Positions 6,489-50,726 of a DNA stretch of 64,000 nucleotides are shown piece after piece. The DNA is from Thermomonas sp. GTDB lineage: Bacteria > Pseudomonadota > Gammaproteobacteria > Xanthomonadales > Xanthomonadaceae. A model generated the notes under the pieces. The model saw only the letters and a program-made list of their open reading frames with translations. It ran no database searches and was not told where the DNA came from. The first letter of the stretch is position 1. Each line of letters begins with the position of its first letter. The stretch spans positions 267,804 through 331,803 of the forward strand of contig NZ_JAMLIW010000002.1 of assembly GCF_023953935.1 (NCBI RefSeq). The letters run 5' to 3'. The translations under genes and the position numbers were made by a program.

Positions 6489-6836
6489 TCAGGGCGCAGT
6501 TGCGGGCAGTTTCGCCACGACCTCGTACGGTGTTCCGCTCGCAGAGTCTGGCCCCACCACGAGACGCACCCGATCACCGACCGCCAGCGGGCCGCCACTG
6601 ACGACTTCGGCATCCACGCGTGAACCATCCGGCAGGCGGACCGAGACCGTCGCAACGGCACGCCCGGATGCCGACACTGTGCCGGCACCGACCGCCTCGA
6701 CTCGCCCGTGGAGCGGCTGAAAGTCCGAAGTGGCCCAACGATAGACCGCGATGGCGCCGAGTATGACGATCGCGAGCACGACCAGGATTTGCGTGCGCGA
6801 TCCACGTTCTTCCAGCTTCGTGAACTTGTCTGGCAT
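6489..6836 (-). CDS. Small membrane-anchored protein of unknown function
   Basis: The gene is not recognised. The 115-residue product has a short charged N terminus, one transmembrane segment at about residues 17-34 (rich in V, L, I, A), then a hydrophilic domain of about 75 residues containing GRVEAVG, GRAVATVSVRLPDG and GDRVRLVVG. That pattern is plausible for a small beta-barrel such as an OB-like fold. Topology suggests a cytoplasmic N terminus and periplasmic domain. I chose the ATG at 6836 because the longer frame upstream reads as low-quality sequence. It lies downstream of ispG on the same strand, 148 bp away. Confidence 0.6.
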   Translation of the reverse strand: MPDKFTKLEERGSRTQILVVLAIVILGAIAVYRWATSDFQPLHGRVEAVGAGTVSASGRAVATVSVRLPDGSRVDAEVVSGGPLAVGDRVRLVVGPDSASGTPYEVVAKLPATAP

Positions 6837-6984
6837 GGATACGGACGCCTGCGTCGGGGTCAGCCGGAGAATAGGACATTGGAACGGGACATTGCCTCTC
6901 GTCCAAGCATGCTCGACCCCGGAACCATCGCGCAAGTGCGTGCACCGCGCGGCGTACGGCAATGCGGCATGACTCGATATTGCC

Positions 6985-8238
<1,254 letters not shown>

Positions 8239-8430
8239 GCCGACATTTTAGCGGTTGCCGCAGACGAGCGGCGTCAGGCTCGCATGGTGCCTGGTCGGCT
8301 TCGCCGCCAGATTGGCAGATGGGCAGGTTCGGCTTGGGTCGAGTGGAGCGCGCCGGTCAAATGCCTCCGCGAAATCCTGACGGGCTTGCTTTGGGCAGAG
8401 TCCGAGCCGCTGAGCCAACCACTGACGCCG

Positions 8431-8537
8431 CTTGGCTTGAACCCATTTCGGCTCGCCGCGCGAACTCCGCTTCCGGCTACGACGCGCGGCCGCGCGCCAT
8501 CCATGGCGCGCTCGAACCGAAATGGGTTCAAGCCAAG
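8431..8537. repeat. 107-bp interrupted palindrome in the gene-free 8239-8644 region
   Basis: Arms of 25 bp (8431-8455 and 8513-8537) match as inverted repeats at 24 of 25 positions, and the interior contains further self-complementary GC-rich segments (CGCGCGG near 8483, GCGCGC near 8506). The whole 8239-8644 stretch between ispG and the insertion sequence holds no credible gene; open frames there have no recognisable composition or start signals. The element could be a small non-autonomous repeat or a strong RNA hairpin. Confidence 0.75.
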
Positions 8538-8706
8538 CCCGTGATTTTCTTGCGCCATCGGCTCAAGCCAAGCCCAAGCCACTCCAGAGCCAGCCCCGCA
8601 CCACACCGGCTTTCCGCTGACGCCAATACGCGTGATTGCGGCTAGGGTTCACCCCCGTTTTCACGGACACTTACGAGAAGGCCGATCGAGGCCATGAGGA
8701 GTGTTC

Positions 8707-9006
8707 ATGTCAATGCGAAGGAAGTTCAGCGAGGAGTTCAAGCGTGGCGCGGTTGAGCAGGCCAGCCGGCCTGGCGTCAGTTGTGCCCAAGTGGCGCGGG
8801 AGCTGGGGATTCGGGACAACCTGCTGACGCGCTGGAAGCGGGAAGCCCAGAGCCAGGGCAAGACCGCATTCGGTGGCACCGGGACGCCCCGGGACGAGGA
8901 AGTGGCGCGTCTCAAACGCGAACTGGCCCGGGTGCAGAAGGAGCGGGATTTTTTGCGCGAAGCGGCGACGTTCTTTGCCAAGGGATCGTCCCGAGGTATC
9001 GGGTGA
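8707..9006 (+). CDS. IS3-family OrfA, helix-turn-helix transposase subunit
   Basis: The 99-residue product begins [16 protein letters not shown] (after an initial MS), the usual OrfA start, and contains a helix-turn-helix ([22 protein letters not shown], split over two helices) for binding the terminal repeats. A leucine-zipper-like heptad ([19 protein letters not shown]) follows and would dimerise the protein. An AGGAG sits 6 bp before the ATG at 8707. Its stop codon overlaps the GTG of orfB (GTGA). Confidence 0.9.
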
Positions 9007-9863
9007 TCGAACGTTGCCGCGATGAGTTTCCGATTCGACTGATGTGCCGCTGCCTGAAGGTATCGGCCAGCGGCTACTACGACTGGAGCAAGCGCTTGCC
9101 CAGCGACCGACAGTGCGACAACCAGCGCCTGCTTGGCCGCATCCGCGAACTGCATGAAGACAGCCGGGGGACGTTGGGTGCTGGCCGGATGCAGGAGGAT
9201 CTTGCCGAGGAAGGCGAGACGGCAAGCCTGAACCGGGTGGCACGGATCATGGCTGCTGACGGACTGCAAGGCTGGCCGCGTCCGAAGCGGCGTGGTCAGC
9301 GCGGGAGCCCCGCGCTGACGCCTCTGGGTGTGCGCAACCACCTAGAACGGGACTTCACTGCGCTGGAACCGGAGACCAAATGGGTCACCGACATCACCGA
9401 ACTCAAGACCGGCCAAGGCAAGCTGTACCTGTGCATCGTGCTGGACCTGTTCGACCAGCGCGTCGTGGGCTGGTCGATGCATCACCGGCAGGACCGACAG
9501 ATGGTGATCCGGGCCGTGCAAATGGCGGTCTGGCAGCGTCAGGAAAGCTATCCGGTGATCTTGCATTCCGACCGCGGCAGCCAGTTCCGAAGCGGCGATT
9601 ACCAGCGCTATCTGGCGGCCAACAATCTGGTGTGCTCGATGAGTGCCGTGGGTCATTGCGGCGACAACGCCGCCTGCGAGGGCTTCTTCGGCCTGCTCAA
9701 GCGCGAGCGCGTCTACCGCACGAAGTACCCGACACTCGATGCTGCAAGGGCGGATGTGTTCGAATATATCGAACGACGCCATAACCCAAGGATGCGACGC
9801 AGAGTCATCAGACAAGACCAGAAGTTTTCAGCTCTTTCCAAACCGTCCGTGATTTCGGGGTAG
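9003..9863 (+). CDS. IS3-family OrfB, DDE transposase catalytic domain
   Basis: This is the RNase-H-like integrase domain that catalyses transposition, probably active as an OrfAB fusion made by -1 frameshifting at 8949-8955. The DDE triad is visible as D in VTDITEL, D in LHSDRGSQF and E in [12 protein letters not shown], with the usual 35-residue spacing between the second D and the E. An HTH_21-type region ([20 protein letters not shown]) opens the protein. If translated alone it would begin at the GTG at 9003, giving 286 residues. No internal stop is seen. Confidence 0.92.
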
Positions 9864-40395: not shown

Positions 40396-40809
40396 TCAGG
40401 AAGGAAACGCATCGAACACAGGAAGGCGATCCAGATCGTGCTCCCACGCCGCCTTGCTGGCGACGAAGATGTGCGCGTCCGGCGCGGCGTTGAACGGAAC
40501 ATCGAGGGCGCCGGCCGGCACCACGATCATCTGTTCCATTGCATAAGGCAATCCCGAACCGCAGCTGACGCAGAAGCAGCGGGCATGGCGGGTCGCCGGC
40601 AGCCGGTAGAGGATCGCCCTGCCTTCTCCCGCCAACCAGCGCAGTGTTGCCGTCGCCGAGAACAGATTGGCCGCGTACGCGGAACCGGTGTCCTTGCGGC
40701 AATGCGCGCAGTGGCAGAGGTAGAAGTGGTCGAACCTGCCTTCGATCACGAAGCGCACCGCACCGCACAGACAGGAGCCGTGATGGCGCGTGGGCTGCAT
40801 TTCATTCAT
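40396..40809 (-). CDS. GFA-family (glutathione-dependent formaldehyde-activating/CENP-V-like) protein
   Basis: The 137-residue protein has the zinc-binding pattern of the GFA fold: SCLCGAVRF (C-x-C), [10 protein letters not shown] (C-x-C-x2-C) and FCVSCGSGL (C-x2-C), with the second metal site near the middle. The physiological substrate of such proteins is mostly unknown. Its start overlaps the truA stop by 8 bp and it ends 21 bp before trpF, so it is inserted in the usual truA-trpF spacing. Confidence 0.85.
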
Positions 40810-41570
40810 CGCCGCAAACCTCCTCCGGCAAGCCCCAGTGGCGCGGGTATTTCGGACCGAGGAAGAGCAATCCCGCCGCCGGTGCGGTTGGGCCGGCTTG
40901 GGTGCGATCGCGCTGTTCCAGCAGCTCAGCGATCCATTCAACCGGTCGTTCGCCGCAGCCCACCAGCAACAGCGAGCCGACGATGTTGCGCACCATGTGG
41001 TGCAGGAAGGCGTTGGCCTGCACGTCCACCACCACCTCATCGCCAGTACGGAGGATCGAAATATCCTGCAGATTGCGCCGCGCGTGGGTGGCCTGGCACT
41101 GGGCGCTGCGGAAACTCGAAAAATCCCGCTCGCCGAGCAGCGCCTGCGCCGCGCATTGCGTAGCGGCTGTAGCAGCAGCAGCGGCTCCCAACCCAGGAAC
41201 TGGCGCTGCAGCCGACGCCTGCGGGTGAATCGACCCAGCGGTAGCGGCGCCCGCGCAAGCACGCGCTGAATATTTTCCTGCTGCTGTACACCGCCAGCGT
41301 TGGCGGCAGGTTGGCGGTGGTGCCGAGGACCCAGCCGCGCTGGCTGCGCTCGACCTCGGTGTCGAAATGCACGACCTGGCAGCGCGCATGCACGCCGGCA
41401 TCGGTGCGCCCGGCACAGACGGTCGCGATCTGCGCATTCGCCACCCGCGAAAGCGCGGCTTCCAGCGTGGTCTGCAAACTCCCGTCCGGTGCCATGGACC
41501 CGGGCTGGCTCAAACGCTGCCAACCCGAGTAGCCACTGCCGTCGTATTCGATCCCCAGCGCGAAGCGCAT
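40802..41570 (-). CDS. truA: tRNA pseudouridine(38-40) synthase, frameshifted in the middle
   Basis: TruA converts uridines 38-40 of the tRNA anticodon arm to pseudouridine. The N-terminal part ([18 protein letters not shown], and the catalytic aspartate in [10 protein letters not shown]) and the C-terminal part ([40 protein letters not shown]) are conserved but lie in different frames. A middle segment containing FLGWEPL is in the third frame, so at least two indels lie between 41155 and 41240. The span is one base off a multiple of three. Without the shifts the protein would be about 256 residues, normal for TruA. Sequencing error is a strong alternative to real inactivation. Confidence 0.85.
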
Positions 41571-41587
41571 CGGCGTGGACGCCGTGC

Positions 41588-43588
41588 TCAACCCATGATT
41601 CGGGCCAGCATCTTGCCGGCCTTCTCGCTCACCGCATCGTCTTCGTCATTGAGCAATTCGGCGAGCAACTGCTGCGCGGAGGTGCGGTCGCCCATGTCGA
41701 GGAAGGCATCGACCAGCTTGAAGCGCTGCTCCGCGCTGGCGTGCGCCGGCGGCTCGTTGCCGGCGGCAGGGGTGGGCGCAGCGGGGGCCGTCGGTGGCGC
41801 CGGTTCCGGGTCGGAGACCCGCGCTGCATCGTGCGGTTCCTGGGCTCCGGAACGCGACACGGCGCCTTTCACGACCCAGCCTGAATGCCAAGCCGGGGCA
41901 TCGCTGCCGGAAGCAGCGGACGCCGGCGGTGTTCCCGGCGCTGGCGCGGCGGAGGGCTGCGGTGCCGGGGCGGCGTCCGCCTTGGCCTTTTGCTCACGCC
42001 GTTGGTCGAGCCGCTGCATGCTCGCGGCCAGGGCGTCGTGGTCGAAACTGCGGCGCGGCTTGGGCTCCGGCTCGGGCCGGTTGCGCTTGCTCAGGAACCA
42101 GACCAGCAGACCCAGCAGCAGGACGCCCACGCCGCCGCCGATGTAATACGGATTGATGTTCGAATGGGTGGCGGCGGCCTGTTCCGAGGCAGGCGTCGCC
42201 GGCGCGGCCGCCTGATTGGCCTGGGCCAGCTGGTGCTGCGCGGAGGCCAATTCGGTGTCCTTCATGGTCAGCAGGCGATGCTGCTCGTCCCGGATCCGTT
42301 CCAGTTCGGCCACGCGCTCCTTCAGTTCCCCGACTTCCGCGGTTTTCGCGGAAATCTCTTCGTCGCGCTGTGCCAACTCCTGTTGCAACATGCTGCCCCC
42401 ACCGCGATTGCCGGTTCCGGTATTTGCCCCCGCCGCGGGCGTGGTGCCCGTCGGCGGCACGATTTGCAGGCGTGCTTCGGTGCGCCGTGCGCCTGACGCC
42501 GCGGCCGTCCGCGCCGCTGCGGCGCCGGGGGCGGCAGCCGGTGCAACCGGCGGCGAAGCCGAGGCGGCCGGGGCCCGGTTCGCAGGCACCGTGCCTGCCA
42601 TCGCGACCGCATCCGGCTGCAGCACAGGCCGCTGCGACTGGCGCCAAGCCTGCATCTGCTGGCGCACCACCGCGCTGGCCTCGCCGGCGTCGATCTGCGC
42701 CACTTCGCCCCCTTCCGGGACCCGCAGCACGGCGCCCTGGCGCAGTAGATTGATGTTGTCGCTGATGAAGGCGTCGGGATTGGCGCGCAGCAGCGCCAGC
42801 ATGGTCTGGTCGAGGCTGAACGTGTTGCGCAATCCTAGGCTGCCGGCAATTGCGGACAGGGTTTCGCCGCGCTTGATCGGGCCGTACTGACTTGCGTCAT
42901 CGGCGGCTGCCGCCTCTGCGGTCGCGACTGCCGTCTCGGACGGTTCGGGTGCCGGCGCGGCCGGCGGCGGGGTGGACACATCGACCGCTGCCTCCGGAGC
43001 CGGCGCCTCCGCAGCGACCGGGGCAGGCGTTGCCGGCGCGCTGGCTTCAGGTTGTGGCGGCAGCGGCTCGGCCGTCACCGGGGCCGCGGCTGCTTCCGCG
43101 GTCGCTTCCGGCAGCGCCGGACGCTGGACGAGGTTCGGCGCCTCGACGGCGGCCATCTGCACGTCCGCCTGGGCAGCCGGCGCGCTGGCCGTGTTGGGCG
43201 CGTCCACCAGCGCCGAATACTCGCGCACCAGCTTGCCTTCGCCCCAATCGACCTCGATCAGGAAATTGACCATCGCCTGGTCAATCGGCTGGACGCTGGT
43301 GACCCGAATCACCGGATTGCCGCGCGCATCGCTGCCCAGACTGAACTGAAGGTCTGCGGCCGCGCCTGTGGGCGGCGGCAGGCCAATGCGGCGGAAGGTT
43401 TCCGGCGACGCCATCCGCGTGCGCAGCGCGGCCAGTTCGCCCGGCGTGGTTGAAATGATCGGGATTTCCGCCAGCAGCGGTTGATTGAGCCTGGACTTGA
43501 CCTTGATCTGGCCAAGGCCCAAGGCCCATGCATTGCCGGCTGCCAGCAACAGCGCGGCAATCGCTGCTTTGCGCAAGATTCCGATCAC
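41588..43588 (-). CDS. fimV: FimV-like peptidoglycan-binding pilus/polarity protein
   Basis: FimV is an inner-membrane hub for type IV pilus assembly and cell polarity. The 666-residue protein has a signal peptide (about 1-24), the conserved N-terminal [16 protein letters not shown] segment, a LysM domain (about 234-289, [14 protein letters not shown]), an Ala/Pro-rich stretch, a coiled coil with [15 protein letters not shown], one membrane helix (about 481-501) and the C-terminal FimV domain with TPR-like [17 protein letters not shown] chose the GTG at 43588 because GGAG lies 8 bp upstream and the signal peptide begins there. The cytoplasmic part is short compared with Pseudomonas FimV. Confidence 0.88.
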
Positions 43589-46241: not shown

Positions 46242-47489
46242 ATGTCCGCGATCCAGCTCAGCTACAGCACGTTCGGATTGACCAATCTCGACTTTCTCGA
46301 TGCGATCGACGCCGTGGATCGCGCCGGATACGCCGGGATCGAGATTTCCTTCCACCGCGACCAGTTCAATCCGTTCAACATCGACGACGCTTATCTGGAC
46401 GCGGTGAAACAGCGGCTGGACGCGCGCCGGGTGCAGGCCTGCTGCGTGGCCACCGCCTCGCATTTCTTCGATCCGCACCGGCCCCACGAGCCCTCTCTGA
46501 TGGCGCTGGAGAAGGCCGCGCGGATGCGCCGGATCGATCTGGTCAAGCGCGGCATCCACGTCGCCCGCAAGCTGGGGGTGAACCTGGTCACCTTCGGCAG
46601 CGGCTTCATCCGCGACGACCACGTGGCCCATCCCGAGGTCGATCCGGGCGCGCTGCTGGTCGATTCGATCCGCGAATGCCTGCGCGAAATCCGCGACGAT
46701 GAGGACATCACCCTGCTGATCGAGCCCGAACCGGGCATGTACATCGAGACGATGGCGCAGGGGCTGGCCTTGCTGGATCAGGTCGGCTCGGAAAAATTCA
46801 AGCTGCACATCGACATCTGCCACGCCTATTGCTCGGAAACCAATTACCTCGAAGCGCTGCGGCTGGCCGCGCCGCAGGCGCGCTACCTGCATATTTCCGA
46901 CGCCCGCGAAGGCTACAACCTGAAGATCGTCCACGACCACGCCGAACTCGCGCCGGACCTGGACTTCGCCAGCGTGCTGGTGCACTTCCCGGACACCGCC
47001 GATTTCCTTCTGCTGGATCGTGAACACCCGATCCACTTCCCGCTCGAGGCGCCCACGCCCGCCCGCAAGGCGCGGATCGAGGCGCTGCTGCAACGGGCCG
47101 GGGTGACGCGCGACCTGCAGGAGGTGCCGTATTCCAGCCTGTACGCCGGGGCCTCGCCGCTGGACGATGAAATTTTCACCTATCTGATCTCGATGCCGGG
47201 CCTGAGCTACGACGTGCTGGAGCGCGCGCGCCCGATCTGCGGCTATCTGCGCGGCGCGAAAAATGCGCCGCTGGTGGACAAGATGGTGGCCAATACCCTG
47301 ACCGGGATCGTGCATTTCCACGAAATCCCCGGCGAAGGCACGCTGGACCTGGCCGGCAGCTTCCGCGCGCTGGAGGAAGGCGGCTTCCAAGGCTTTGGCT
47401 CGGTCGAGCTCTATCACCACGTCGAGGGTTGGCAGCAGGCGCTGGACGCCAGTTATCGGCATCTGGCTGCGATCAACGGCGAGCGCTGA
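46242..47489 (+). CDS. Xylose-isomerase-like TIM barrel protein, EboE-like
   Basis: The 415-residue protein opens with IQLSYSTFGL and GYAGIEISFH, the start of the AP-endonuclease-2/sugar-isomerase barrel. Candidate metal and substrate residues sit at barrel positions: E161 and E163 (IEPEPGMY), D191 and H194 (HIDICHAY), H217, H358/H360 (VHFHEIPGEG) and E389 (SVELYHH). It resembles EboE, a metabolite-processing protein of the ebo operons found in cyanobacteria, some algal plastids and diverse bacteria. Its reaction is unknown. It is first in a five-gene cluster; the next gene starts 8 bp downstream. Confidence 0.75.
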   Translation: MSAIQLSYSTFGLTNLDFLDAIDAVDRAGYAGIEISFHRDQFNPFNIDDAYLDAVKQRLDARRVQACCVATASHFFDPHRPHEPSLMALEKAARMRRIDLVKRGIHVARKLGVNLVTFGSGFIRDDHVAHPEVDPGALLVDSIRECLREIRDDEDITLLIEPEPGMYIETMAQGLALLDQVGSEKFKLHIDICHAYCSETNYLEALRLAAPQARYLHISDAREGYNLKIVHDHAELAPDLDFASVLVHFPDTADFLLLDREHPIHFPLEAPTPARKARIEALLQRAGVTRDLQEVPYSSLYAGASPLDDEIFTYLISMPGLSYDVLERARPICGYLRGAKNAPLVDKMVANTLTGIVHFHEIPGEGTLDLAGSFRALEEGGFQGFGSVELYHHVEGWQQALDASYRHLAAINGER

Positions 47490-47497
47490 AGGCGGAC

Positions 47498-47989
47498 ATG
47501 GACGACAGGATCGACGTCGCATCCCTCGGCTGGCCCGCAGGGCTGGTAGGTGAACTCGACCACCGCCGGCTGAAGGCGCCCAGCGTCAAGCTGCGCTCGG
47601 CGCGGCGGGGCGAGCACGGCGACGTCACGTATTGCGTCGACCTGCGCATTCGTCATCCAAATGCCGACGAATATCTGACTTCGACCGAGCTGCATTCGGT
47701 CGAACATTTCCTGCTCGAAGGCTTCAGCCGGCTGCTGCCTGAGCACTTCGTCTCGGTCGGCCTGATGGGCTGCCAAACCGGCTTCTACCTCGGCTTCGTC
47801 AACGAAGGCCGCAGCGAGGTGCTGTGCGCTTGCCTGGTGCGCATTCTCGACGAGATGCAGTCGGCGACCGAAGTGCCTTACGCCAACATCGAACAATGCG
47901 GCCACTGGCGCAATCACAGCCTCGCCGACGCGCAGCGGGTGGCACGGGAGATCCTCGCCCGCCGCGCACACTGGCTGGACGCCGCATGA
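47498..47989 (+). CDS. luxS: LuxS-family S-ribosylhomocysteine lyase
   Basis: LuxS cleaves S-ribosylhomocysteine to homocysteine and DPD, the precursor of autoinducer-2. The 163-residue protein keeps the metal ligands H66 and H70 in HSVEH and C134 in QCG, the general base E69, the catalytic cysteine C92 in MGCQTGFY and the substrate arginine R50. The C92-C134 spacing (42) equals that of Bacillus LuxS, and ANIEQCG followed by HSLADA matches the C-terminal signature. The length fits the family. It lies 8 bp after the eboE-like gene and overlaps the cyclase gene by 4 bp, so it is part of this operon. No mtn/pfs nucleosidase gene is visible nearby. Confidence 0.88.
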   Translation: MDDRIDVASLGWPAGLVGELDHRRLKAPSVKLRSARRGEHGDVTYCVDLRIRHPNADEYLTSTELHSVEHFLLEGFSRLLPEHFVSVGLMGCQTGFYLGFVNEGRSEVLCACLVRILDEMQSATEVPYANIEQCGHWRNHSLADAQRVAREILARRAHWLDAA

Positions 47990-49137
47990 TTACCCGGGCC
48001 GACCGCTGGCAGGTGCGCACCCAGCGCCCGATTGCCTATGACGTGATCAAGGCAGCGGGCCTGTTCGATGCCGACAATCGCCGCCTGCTCGACTACGGCC
48101 GCTGCGACGGCGGCCGCCGCTTCGTGGTGGTCGATGCCAATGTCGACCGCTTGCACGGCAAGGCGATCCGAGACTGGTTTGCCCACCAAGGCATCGAAGC
48201 GCGGGTGGTGGTGTTCCCCGGCGGCGAGGAACACAAGACGATAGACCTCTACCAGGACATCCTGCGCGAACTCGACGGCTTCCCGATCCACCGCCGCGAT
48301 GAACCCATCATCGCCATTGGCGGCGGCGTGCTGACCGACGTGGTCGCCTTCGTCGCCGCCACCTACCGGCGCGGGATCCCGCACATCAAGGTGCCCACCA
48401 CCCTGATGGGCTACATCGACGCCGCGCTCGGGATCAAGGCCGGGATCAACTTCAACGGCAACAAGAACCGCCTCGGCAGCTTCGAGCCTCCCGCCGCGGT
48501 CCTGCTCGACAAGCACTTCCTGCGCACGCTGCCACCGCGCCACCTGCGCAACGGCGTCTGTGAAATCGTCAAGCTGGCGGTGGTCTGCGACGCCGACCTG
48601 TTCGAACGGCTCGAACGCGACGGCGCGCGCTGCATCGAAACCGCATTCCTGGATGCCGCCGGCGACGCCATTCTCGACGCCGCGATCCAGGGCATGCTCA
48701 CCGAACTGGAACCGAACCTGCACGAGGACCAGCTGGCGCGCAAGGTCGATTTCGGCCACAGCTTCAGCTATGGGCTGGAAACGCGCCACGAACAGCACCT
48801 GCTGCACGGCGAGGCGGTGCTGCTGGACGTGCTGGTCTCGACCGAACTCGCGCTGAGCCGCGGCCTGCTGGGGCAACGCCAGGCCGAGCGCGTGTTCGGG
48901 CTGGTCGCAAGCCTCGGCATCGACCTCAATCCCGGCGTCCTCGATGCCGAGGTGATGTGGCAGTCCCTGCTCGACCGCATCGAACACCGCAATGGGTTGC
49001 AGCGCGTGCCGGTACCCAACGGAATTGGTAGTTGCACCTTCCTCAACGACATCGCCCGCCGCGAGCTCGACGCCGCGGTGCCGGCCCTGCACGCCCGCCT
49101 CAAGGTGACCCATGAACCAAGCCGTGAACGTCGATAG
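47986..49137 (+). CDS. Sugar-phosphate cyclase of the dehydroquinate synthase family, EboD-like
   Basis: The 383-residue protein has the DHQS fold: NAD-binding GGGVLTD (112-118), the PTTL motif and the zinc ligands E193 (CEIVK), H258 (DFGHSF) and H274 (LLHGEA). Where shikimate-pathway AroB has a VGGKTGVN loop, this protein has ALGIKAGINFNG (K151), and it lacks AroB-type flanks. It therefore groups better with sedoheptulose-7-phosphate cyclase-like enzymes such as EboD than with AroB. Likely substrates are heptulose phosphates, but this cannot be settled by eye. It overlaps luxS (ATGA) and ubiG (26 bp). Confidence 0.78.
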   Translation: MITRADRWQVRTQRPIAYDVIKAAGLFDADNRRLLDYGRCDGGRRFVVVDANVDRLHGKAIRDWFAHQGIEARVVVFPGGEEHKTIDLYQDILRELDGFPIHRRDEPIIAIGGGVLTDVVAFVAATYRRGIPHIKVPTTLMGYIDAALGIKAGINFNGNKNRLGSFEPPAAVLLDKHFLRTLPPRHLRNGVCEIVKLAVVCDADLFERLERDGARCIETAFLDAAGDAILDAAIQGMLTELEPNLHEDQLARKVDFGHSFSYGLETRHEQHLLHGEAVLLDVLVSTELALSRGLLGQRQAERVFGLVASLGIDLNPGVLDAEVMWQSLLDRIEHRNGLQRVPVPNGIGSCTFLNDIARRELDAAVPALHARLKVTHEPSRERR

Positions 49138-49825
49138 TTCCGAAGTCAGCAAATTCGACCGCGTCGCCCAACTCTGGTGGGACCCCACCGGCAAGATGGG
49201 CATGCTGCATGTCATCAATCCGCTGCGCAGCCAGTTCACCTTCGATCACGTCGAGACCATCAAGGGTGCGAAGGCGGTCGACGTCGGCTGCGGCGGCGGC
49301 ATCCTGACCGAAACCCTGGCCAAGGCCGGCGCGCAGGTGATCGGCATCGACCAGTCCGAAATGAGCCTCGCCGTGGCCCGCCAGCACGCCCAGAAAAGCG
49401 GCCTGTCGATCGACTACCGCCTGCAGCGGGTCGAGGAACTCGCTGAACTGGAAGCCGGCACGTTCGATGTCGTCACCTGCCTGGAAATGCTCGAACACGT
49501 GCCCGACCCGGCCGCGATCATCGCCGCCTGCGCGCGTCTGCTCAAGCCCGGTGGCCACGTGATCTTCTCGACCATCAACCGCAGCTTCAAGGCCTGGCTG
49601 TTCGCCATCGTCGGCGGCGAGTACGTGATGCGGATCCTGCCGAAGGGCACCCATCAGTACGAAAAACTGATCCGCCCGCGCGAGCTGCGGCAATGGGCGC
49701 AGGCCAGCGGCCTCACCCACCTGCGCAGCGCCAGCCTGATGTTCAATCCGCTGACCAAGCGCTTCAAGGTGGCCGAGGGCAAGGAAGACGTGAATTACAT
49801 GATGAGCTACGTCAAGCGGGCCTGA
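49112..49825 (+). CDS. ubiG: UbiG-type SAM-dependent O-methyltransferase
   Basis: UbiG performs both O-methylations of ubiquinone synthesis. The 237-residue protein has the UbiG-specific N terminus KFDRVAQLWWDP and LHVINPLR, the SAM motif VDVGCGGG (56-63), the CLEMLEHVPDP stretch and STINRS, so a genuine UbiG is likely. It begins inside the cyclase gene and ends 4 bp before the prenyltransferase gene, so it is expressed with the ebo-like genes. It could serve ubiquinone synthesis, the ebo pathway or both. Confidence 0.88.
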   Translation: MNQAVNVDSSEVSKFDRVAQLWWDPTGKMGMLHVINPLRSQFTFDHVETIKGAKAVDVGCGGGILTETLAKAGAQVIGIDQSEMSLAVARQHAQKSGLSIDYRLQRVEELAELEAGTFDVVTCLEMLEHVPDPAAIIAACARLLKPGGHVIFSTINRSFKAWLFAIVGGEYVMRILPKGTHQYEKLIRPRELRQWAQASGLTHLRSASLMFNPLTKRFKVAEGKEDVNYMMSYVKRA

Positions 49826-49829
49826 GCCG

Positions 49830-50726
49830 ATGCGCAGCTTCCTCGCCCTGTCGCGCTCCACCCACGGCGTGCTCGACATCGCCATGCCGGGCTTCGCCGC
49901 GCTGCTGTGGCTCGGGCACTTCCCGCGCTGGCCGGTGCTGCTGGTGGCGCTGCTGACCGCGCTGGCTGGCTATACCGCGCTGTACGCGCTCAACGACATC
50001 ATCGGGGTCAAGGTCGATCGCGAGAAATTCGCCGGTGCCGGCCCCAATGCCGGCTATTCGGTAGAAGCCTCGGATCTGCGCTATCCGATCGCGCAGGGCA
50101 AGCTCAGTCTCGGCAAGGGGATCGCCTGGTTCGCTGCGTGGTATGTGATCGCCCTGATCGGCGCGTACTGGCTCAATCCGCTGCTGATCTGGGTGGTGCT
50201 GGCCGCGCCGGTCCTGGAAACCGTCTACTGCCTGCTGTTCAAGGTCAGCTGGTGGCGGGTGCTGGTCAGCGGCGTGGTCAAGGCGCTGGGGCCGGTCGCC
50301 GCGGTGCTGGCCGTGGTGCCACGCCCGGACCCGGCCCTGCTGGGCCTGATGGTGGCTTGGCTGATGGCTTGGGAAATCGGCGGCCAGAACATTCCCGCCG
50401 ACTGGAACGACGTCGAAGAAGACCGCCGGGTCGGCGCGCGAACCATCCCGCTGGTGTTCGGCCCCAAAATCGCCGGCACGGTCGTGCTGATCGCCCTGCT
50501 GGCGACGTTGGCGCTGGGCTGGTTCCTGCCCTTGATGTCGCCGCTGGCGCTGGGCCTGCGTTTCCAGCTCGGCATGCTGGCGATCGGCGTGGTGCTGTTG
50601 CTGGCGCCCGGCTTCCAATTGTTCCGTTCGCACGAAGGCCGCCGCGCCGCGAAATTGTTCGACCGTGCCAGCCTGTATCCGCTTGCGTTGCTGGCGCTGG
50701 TGACGGTGTTCGTGCTGATCGATTGA
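49830..50726 (+). CDS. UbiA-family membrane prenyltransferase, EboC-like
   Basis: The 298-residue protein has about eight membrane helices and the two aspartate-rich loops of UbiA enzymes: N55-D56 with D63 (LNDIIGVKVDRE) and D191 onward (DWNDVEEDRR), which bind Mg-diphosphate of an isoprenoid donor. It is unlike UbiA proper in the first motif context (VEASDLRYPIAQGKLS follows), and its linkage to EboD- and EboE-like genes supports EboC. The acceptor is unknown. It ends 66 bp before pyrH. Confidence 0.78.
   Translation: MRSFLALSRSTHGVLDIAMPGFAALLWLGHFPRWPVLLVALLTALAGYTALYALNDIIGVKVDREKFAGAGPNAGYSVEASDLRYPIAQGKLSLGKGIAWFAAWYVIALIGAYWLNPLLIWVVLAAPVLETVYCLLFKVSWWRVLVSGVVKALGPVAAVLAVVPRPDPALLGLMVAWLMAWEIGGQNIPADWNDVEEDRRVGARTIPLVFGPKIAGTVVLIALLATLALGWFLPLMSPLALGLRFQLGMLAIGVVLLLAPGFQLFRSHEGRRAAKLFDRASLYPLALLALVTVFVLID

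Follow-up and report, generated by a model that had tools for sequence, protein, structure and literature searches.

The window, that is the whole 64,000-nucleotide stretch of Thermomonas sp. DNA analyzed here (from a genome of 2.59 Mb, denoted G000), carries at positions 46242-50726 of the plus strand a cluster of five tightly spaced open reading frames (ORFs), all free of internal stop codons, that probably provides a second route, complete in itself, to ubiquinone or a very close benzoquinone, with a ring predicted from the gene families to be built from a sugar. The first gene (46242-47489) encodes a xylose-isomerase-like triosephosphate isomerase (TIM) barrel of 415 amino acids (Pfam PF01261, AP_endonuc_2, 122 bits) and is followed by the genes for a LuxS-clade enzyme of 163 amino acids (47498-47989, start inferred; PF02664, 100 bits), a sedoheptulose-7-phosphate-cyclase-type enzyme of 383 amino acids (47986-49137, with an ATG at 47986; DHQ_synthase, 122 bits, and DHQS_C, 65 bits), a UbiG O-methyltransferase of 237 amino acids (49112-49825; Methyltransf_11, 97 bits) and a UbiA-superfamily prenyltransferase of 298 amino acids (49830-50726; PF01040, 98 bits). 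The barrel gene and luxS are separated by 8 nucleotides, luxS overlaps the cyclase gene by 4 nucleotides, the cyclase gene overlaps ubiG by 26, and a gap of 4 nucleotides precedes the prenyltransferase gene. All five Pfam matches exceed the respective gathering scores; the NCBIfam cut-off is passed by UbiG alone (TIGR01983, 262.6 bits against 103), the other four proteins falling under the cut-off of every listed model. An earlier note on this DNA had described five close-set plus-strand genes of these kinds, and the ORFs together with the Pfam and NCBIfam matches bear this description out.

In the first step of the proposed pathway, the cyclase would convert sedoheptulose 7-phosphate to 2-epi-5-epi-valiolone (EEV; C7H12O6), a ring with oxygen on four neighboring carbons, followed by a carbon that bears a hydroxyl and a hydroxymethyl group and then by a methylene carbon. 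The barrel and the LuxS-clade enzyme would move the carbonyl from one ring position to another and eliminate two molecules of water, turning the hydroxymethyl group into a methyl group and rendering the ring aromatic; the resulting 5-methylbenzene-1,2,3,4-tetrol (C7H8O4) would be formed with no net oxidation or reduction. Such a conversion of hydroxymethyl to methyl would require that a carbonyl be brought to the position adjoining the branched carbon and that a beta-elimination follow, as in the logic of LuxS, which shifts the carbonyl on S-ribosylhomocysteine and then performs a beta-elimination that leaves a methyl ketone. The prenyltransferase would then put the side chain on the sole free ring carbon, and UbiG would methylate the two middle hydroxyls, yielding ubiquinol. 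The four oxygens, the methyl group and the single free carbon of the tetrol coincide with the substitution pattern of ubiquinol, and the atoms balance: the tetrol plus an octaprenyl group and two methyls amounts to C49H76O4, which is ubiquinol-8. Because the ring oxygens and the methyl group would be supplied by the sugar, 4-hydroxybenzoate, UbiA, UbiD, UbiE, the hydroxylases and O2 would all become dispensable.

The canonical ubiquinone pathway (UbiC/A/D/I/G/H/E/F and variants) likewise employs a UbiG-family methyltransferase and a UbiA-superfamily prenyltransferase, and the same end product is proposed here; the difference is that G000 lacks UbiE, UbiH/I/F and an intact UbiA, and that the ring would come from sedoheptulose 7-phosphate rather than from 4-hydroxybenzoate. 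To our knowledge, all routes to ubiquinone described to date begin with 4-hydroxybenzoate, the ring oxygens being introduced by hydroxylation, and no report of sugar-derived ubiquinone was found in the open literature, preprints lying outside the scope of the search. It is also likely, if with slightly more reserve than for the existence of a second pathway as such, that an oxygen-independent five-enzyme ubiquinone route from the pentose-phosphate pool has spread between Pseudomonadota and Chloroflexota and can replace the whole chorismate-derived pathway. If so, this would be the first sugar-derived ubiquinone ring, LuxS would have a role beyond quorum sensing and methyl recycling, Chloroflexota and anaerobes could make ubiquinone without O2, quinone predictions from ubi genes alone would need correcting, and a compact five-gene route would be at hand for coenzyme Q engineering.

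Whether the cluster can replace the textbook route may be judged from 25 Thermomonas genomes, in which loss was scored on UbiG, UbiA, UbiH/I/F and UbiE. Cluster-type LuxS is encoded in 7 of 60 relatives, all seven of them among these 25 genomes (G000, G006, G011, G014, G018, G019 and G021), and the remaining 18 Thermomonas genomes show no match to it; in all seven carriers, luxS lies between the barrel and cyclase genes, and ubiG comes next. Canonical UbiG is present in 20 of the 25 genomes, and the five that lack it (G000, G006, G011, G019 and G021; 95-99.98% complete) are all cluster carriers in which the cluster copy is the only UbiG-like match above 45.5 bits. These five cluster-only genomes also have no UbiA, UbiH/I/F or UbiE over the cut-off, functions that are detected in 19, 19 and 18 of the 25 genomes, respectively. 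In G000, the best UbiA match reaches 166 of 275 bits, and there is no match to UbiH, UbiI or UbiF at E 1e-3 (Coq7 was not searched for). The other misses involve less complete genomes, namely UbiA in G015 (80% complete), the hydroxylases and UbiE in G005 (84%) and UbiE in G023 (78%), all three with UbiG, and no cluster-less genome is without all four functions. Two carriers, G014 and G018, possess all four canonical functions in addition to the cluster. In a tree of cytochrome bc1 from 24 genomes (G023, with a cut contig, is omitted), the five cluster-only genomes form one clade (support 97/96) with G014 as its sister (84/92), many of the other branches being weak. Given this position of the dual-route G014, the common ancestor probably held both routes, and one lineage probably dropped the textbook route; one Thermomonas clade would now rely on the sugar route alone.

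All five cluster-only genomes contain a UbiA-like frame of 309 codons. Two of them, G000 and G011, were examined, and there the frame has comF and bioB as neighbors, the same setting as that of ubiA in other Thermomonas loci. Neither frame retains the two Asp motifs of the prenyltransferase: in place of NDYADR..D they read DGYFGAVQD or DGYFGAVRD, and in place of YDT..A.VDRDDD they read CAT..A.AERDDD or CAT..A.AERNDD. A deletion scar of ubiG was also sought by synteny, and no conserved neighbors were found in the stretches taken. As a separate observation, the former ubiA of G000 (L141, 9626-10546, on G000:C12) overlaps a transporter gene, presumably AtoE-like, that is present also in L143 and missing from the ten canonical ubiA loci, with their short flanks, that served for comparison.

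The respiratory chain itself is retained: the Rieske protein of the bc1 complex is over the cut-off in 25 of 25 Thermomonas genomes, and in each of the 24 genomes examined for it the cytochrome b frame is open, with a length of 424-428 residues. A switch to menaquinone in the five cluster-only genomes was rejected as far as it was tested. The futalosine-pathway enzymes MqnA/D (PF02621) are found in none of the 25 genomes, no MenG exceeds the cut-off in G000, and no further UbiA-superfamily quinone prenyltransferase was found there, so ordinary menaquinone is unlikely in these organisms (MenD and MenF were not searched for). An extra UbiA-like gene considered as a candidate MqnP turned out, in G000 and G011, to be the syntenic, motif-less ubiA; the three PF01040 proteins found in G000 are the cluster enzyme, this former UbiA and heme O synthase (315 bits, cut-off 210). 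It is very probable that the cluster produces the respiratory quinone of the five cluster-only genomes.

The arrangement of the five genes is conserved far beyond Thermomonas. A scan of named species covered the best 80 of 583 LuxS relatives and provided the L-numbered carrier loci cited below; one of these, L009, is a contig of G011 and is hence counted in both the genus and the named-species surveys. The first 21 loci come from Chloroflexota (10), Pseudomonadota (10) and Bacillota (1), and 17 of them (L009-L012 and L014-L026) display the same five-gene order, interrupted in some cases by contig ends. Contig ends also truncate the betaproteobacterial locus L013, which stops just after the start of the cyclase gene, and L028, which begins within luxS. 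In L027 (Desulforadius) and L029 (Zooshikella), the barrel and LuxS are fused in a single reading frame, which is followed by the cyclase gene in L027 and by the contig end in L029. In the remaining 59 of the best 80 loci, luxS stands alone. Outside Thermomonas, protein identity is ~45-70% with the order kept, the second phylum included; conservation of order at this level of identity across two phyla implies that the arrangement is not due to chance. The recurrent, distinct system that the earlier note had envisaged is thus found in other Pseudomonadota and in Chloroflexota, and the lack of any second genome with this gene combination, which the note held would count against it, did not materialize. 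A search for additional conserved partners, defined as families common to at least 3 of 23 loci, yielded only the five genes, overlapping frames and genes of the sister Thermomonas sites. The only prior appearance of the five genes found in the open literature is a set of uninterpreted table rows: in the part of PMC8756737 available to us, Table A1 has all five in an identical arrangement (xylose isomerase-like, LuxS, EEV synthase (EEVS), UbiG, UbiA) beside nirS in the Chloroflexi metagenome-assembled genome (MAG) SURF MAG 42, as nitrite reductase neighbors and with no function proposed.

Among the individual enzymes, the cyclase appears to be nearest to ValA, an EEV synthase, the exact product being predicted from similarity only. 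Its best match in the PDB is 4p53 (ValA, 297 bits), followed by 5tpr (249 bits), which is labeled 3-dehydroquinate synthase in the PDB listing and which we take to be the desmethyl-4-deoxygadusol (DDG) synthase of Anabaena, and then by a 3-dehydroquinate (DHQ) synthase (156 bits). Where ValA and 5tpr differ, the cluster cyclases follow ValA at 34 sites and 5tpr at 13. Residues E193, H258 and H274, presumably the metal ligands, are invariant in the alignment, the E/H/H metal-ligand positions of sedoheptulose-7-phosphate cyclases being kept. In a 31-row tree, the cluster cyclases join ValA and 5tpr to the exclusion of two EboD sequences and one DHQ synthase (98/97, with a long-branch warning). 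The score against the AroB model TIGR01357 is 211.8 bits, under the cut-off of 305, and that of the prenyltransferase on the UbiA model is 32.5 of 275 bits. Given these scores and the proximity of the cyclase to ValA, the possibility that the two proteins are simply paralogues of AroB and UbiA was rejected; neither grouping, each of which the earlier note had listed as contrary to its reading, was observed, and its expectation of a cyclitol-forming type of cyclase paired with a prenyltransferase holds. The pathways to C7 cyclitols that proceed through EEV or its relatives (validamycin with ValA, gadusol with EEVS plus MT-Ox, mycosporine with DDG synthase) use the same cyclase family, ValA being the closest, but here the cyclase is accompanied by LuxS, the isomerase-like barrel, UbiG and the prenyltransferase, and the cyclitol is proposed to be aromatized and prenylated.

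The ebo/edb cluster (EboA-F) also combines a cyclase, a xylose-isomerase-like barrel and a UbiA-superfamily enzyme, and the earlier note had taken the window genes to be of the ebo type. This view does not survive comparison. The EboE model NF035939 recognizes 2 of 249 Pseudomonadota genomes and finds nothing in G000; it is also not among the matches of the barrel at E 1e-3, and none of the Ebo-named NCBIfam models is among the matches of the five cluster proteins. In a BLASTP comparison (E 0.01) with the ORFs of at least 150 amino acids from the real ebo loci of those two EboE-positive genomes, only the cyclase found a match, at 30% identity, the barrel and the prenyltransferase remaining unmatched; EboD itself belongs to a different cyclase branch. 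EboA, EboB and EboF are not among the five genes by Pfam, no genome-wide search for them having been made. An ebo variant was thus rejected on the EboE, BLASTP and tree results. The available portions of two papers on ebo genes (PMC5133447, PMC9235831) do not describe the five-gene cluster and include neither LuxS nor UbiG among the ebo genes, and LuxS does not occur in those of PMC5133447.

In the barrel, residues E161, D191, H194, H217 and E389, which we take to be metal-binding or catalytic, are invariant in 19 aligned sequences, that of the window included. Its superfamily includes keto-inositol isomerases and dehydratases, and the barrel is proposed to be a keto-cyclitol isomerase/dehydratase acting on EEV together with LuxS. 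The LuxS-clade enzyme, for its part, would be a carbonyl-shifting eliminase that converts the ring hydroxymethyl into a ring methyl. It shares with the LuxS S-ribosylhomocysteinase the family, the metal ligands and the catalytic Cys and Glu: the equivalents of HxxEH, Cys84 and Cys126 (H66, E69, H70, C92 and C134 in the window) are kept in all 26-27 cluster LuxS with a letter at the respective position. It differs at the equivalent of Asp78, which is D in 59 of 59 ordinary LuxS and in none of the 27 from the cluster (25 have S, one G and one C), in scoring below the cut-offs of all ten listed NCBIfam LuxS equivalogs (at best 101 bits against 158), and in the cyclitol substrate proposed for it. 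Asp78 presumably holds the homocysteine end of the substrate. In a quick tree of LuxS, the 27 cluster members make up one side, with a long-branch warning. Glu57, Arg65 and Asp78 are cited as important for substrate binding by LuxS in the part of PMC2656534 available; a loss of Arg65 is not claimed here, since what aligns at that position hinges on a one-residue gap.

The UbiG tree places 24 cluster copies and 20 canonical Thermomonas copies on opposite sides (100/100, with a long-branch type of warning for L025 and L026), and the canonical Thermomonas copies are 46-51% identical to the cluster UbiG of the window, for which a double O-methylation of the prenylated tetrol is proposed. In the prenyltransferase, N55, D56 and D63 as well as D191, N193, D194 and D198 are invariant in 18 aligned sequences, its best NCBIfam model gives 59 bits, and its predicted reaction is the octaprenylation of 5-methylbenzene-1,2,3,4-tetrol.

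That the quinone is ubiquinone made via EEV is likely, yet a number of points weigh against this reading. The product, the order of the steps and the roles of the barrel and LuxS are all predictions; what has been observed are the gene families, their order and distribution and the loss of the canonical genes. The cyclase tree fails to set the cluster cyclases apart as a single group from ValA and 5tpr, which have long branches. UbiB, UbiD, UbiX, UbiJ, Coq7 and IspB lay outside the survey of losses, and the p value of 0.0004 for the association between cluster and loss ignores descent; since the five cluster-only genomes are one clade, they represent a single loss event. The former UbiA frame is 85% conserved between G000 and G011, so it may have acquired a new job, possibly through repurposing. 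Among the other carriers, UbiH-type hydroxylases are over the cut-off in 7 of 19 genomes reached via the named loci (in none of the 9 Chloroflexota tested), and UbiE/MenG in 17 of 20, including 9 of 10 Chloroflexota; in the hydroxylase-bearing carriers, as in G014 and G018, the cluster product may be an extra compound. In the case of the Chloroflexota carriers (L011, L012 and L017-L024), the presence of MenG in nine of the ten suggests two quinone systems in one cell. Finally, locus L027 of Desulforadius tongensis (6705-9754; Bacillota) has the fused barrel-LuxS and the cyclase with no adjoining ubiG or prenyltransferase, and the ring-building trio may serve a different product there. Two MAGs of Proteobacteria in which the cluster has diverged, and for which completeness is not given, offer no more than leads to a possible second replacement of the textbook route: G319 (L025) has neither hydroxylases nor UbiE/MenG over the cut-off, and G320 (L026) has UbiE/MenG but no hydroxylases.

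Of the competing explanations, the one that fares best, although improbable, is that the five genomes do obtain their respiratory quinone from the cluster but that this quinone is a benzoquinone other than ubiquinone, differing in the placement of its methyl, methoxy or hydroxyl groups, or has another ring skeleton derived from a different sugar phosphate. The distance of the prenyltransferase from UbiA, which leaves room for a different acceptor, would agree with this explanation, as would the fact that the cyclase product is predicted from similarity alone. It is opposed by the score of UbiG, which is over the equivalog cut-off, by the atom count that gives ubiquinol-8, and by the Qo-site stretch of cytochrome b, whose sequence in the five cluster-only genomes exactly matches the one found in seven siblings without the cluster and in G018. 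Furthermore, Q-8 is reported for the genus Thermomonas in the accessible part of PMC9558575, a report that is not tied to a cluster-only genome and to that extent falls short of the ubiquinone reading.

Somewhat less probable still is a prenylated and methylated cyclitol or aromatic secondary metabolite without a respiratory function, the loss of the ubi genes being coincidental (with quinone scavenging or an unrecognized pathway in their place). The single loss event on the tree, the presence of hydroxylases or MenG over the cut-off in most other carriers and the scope of the menaquinone search, outside of which MenD and MenF fall, are all compatible with such a metabolite. Nevertheless, the four functions have been lost together only in cluster carriers and with bc1 retained, the cluster UbiG passes its equivalog cut-off, and G000 shows no other intact quinone-type prenyltransferase, all of which counts against a metabolite of this kind. 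Very improbable is the notion that LuxS and UbiG are ordinary enzymes (of S-adenosylhomocysteine recycling or autoinducer-2 synthesis and of canonical ubiquinone synthesis, respectively) and that the cyclase gene is next to them incidentally: the kept catalytic residues of LuxS and the UbiG score fit it, but the gene order is conserved in two phyla, LuxS is fused to the barrel, Asp78 is replaced in every cluster member, and UbiE and UbiH/I/F are not over the cut-off in the five genomes with the cluster UbiG. The suggestion in the earlier note that LuxS recycles S-adenosylhomocysteine likewise finds no support, given the Asp78 replacement, the barrel fusions, the location of the only luxS copy in the cluster and the absence of a match in 18 of the 25 Thermomonas genomes (SahH and MtnN were not searched for).

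With regard to the surroundings of the cluster in the window, the divergent gene upstream is aroC, the gene downstream is, judging from its sequence, presumably pyrH, and a scan for promoters and terminators gave nothing above chance. An aroC gene also adjoins the cluster in the Chloroflexota contig L018 (3151-4281, just before the cluster), its product being 37% identical to that of the window aroC. Downstream of the cluster in L014 (7295-10376), there is a gene for a B12/radical S-adenosylmethionine protein and then, as the second gene after the cluster, one for the ubiquinone hydroxylase UbiM (537 bits, cut-off 420), a neighbor that fits the ubiquinone reading. Elsewhere in the window, truA (40800-41591, minus strand) is split over two frames, with the N-terminal part running from 41591 and the C-terminal TruA match in the frame of the ORF 40802-41437, which reflects either an assembly error or a disrupted gene.

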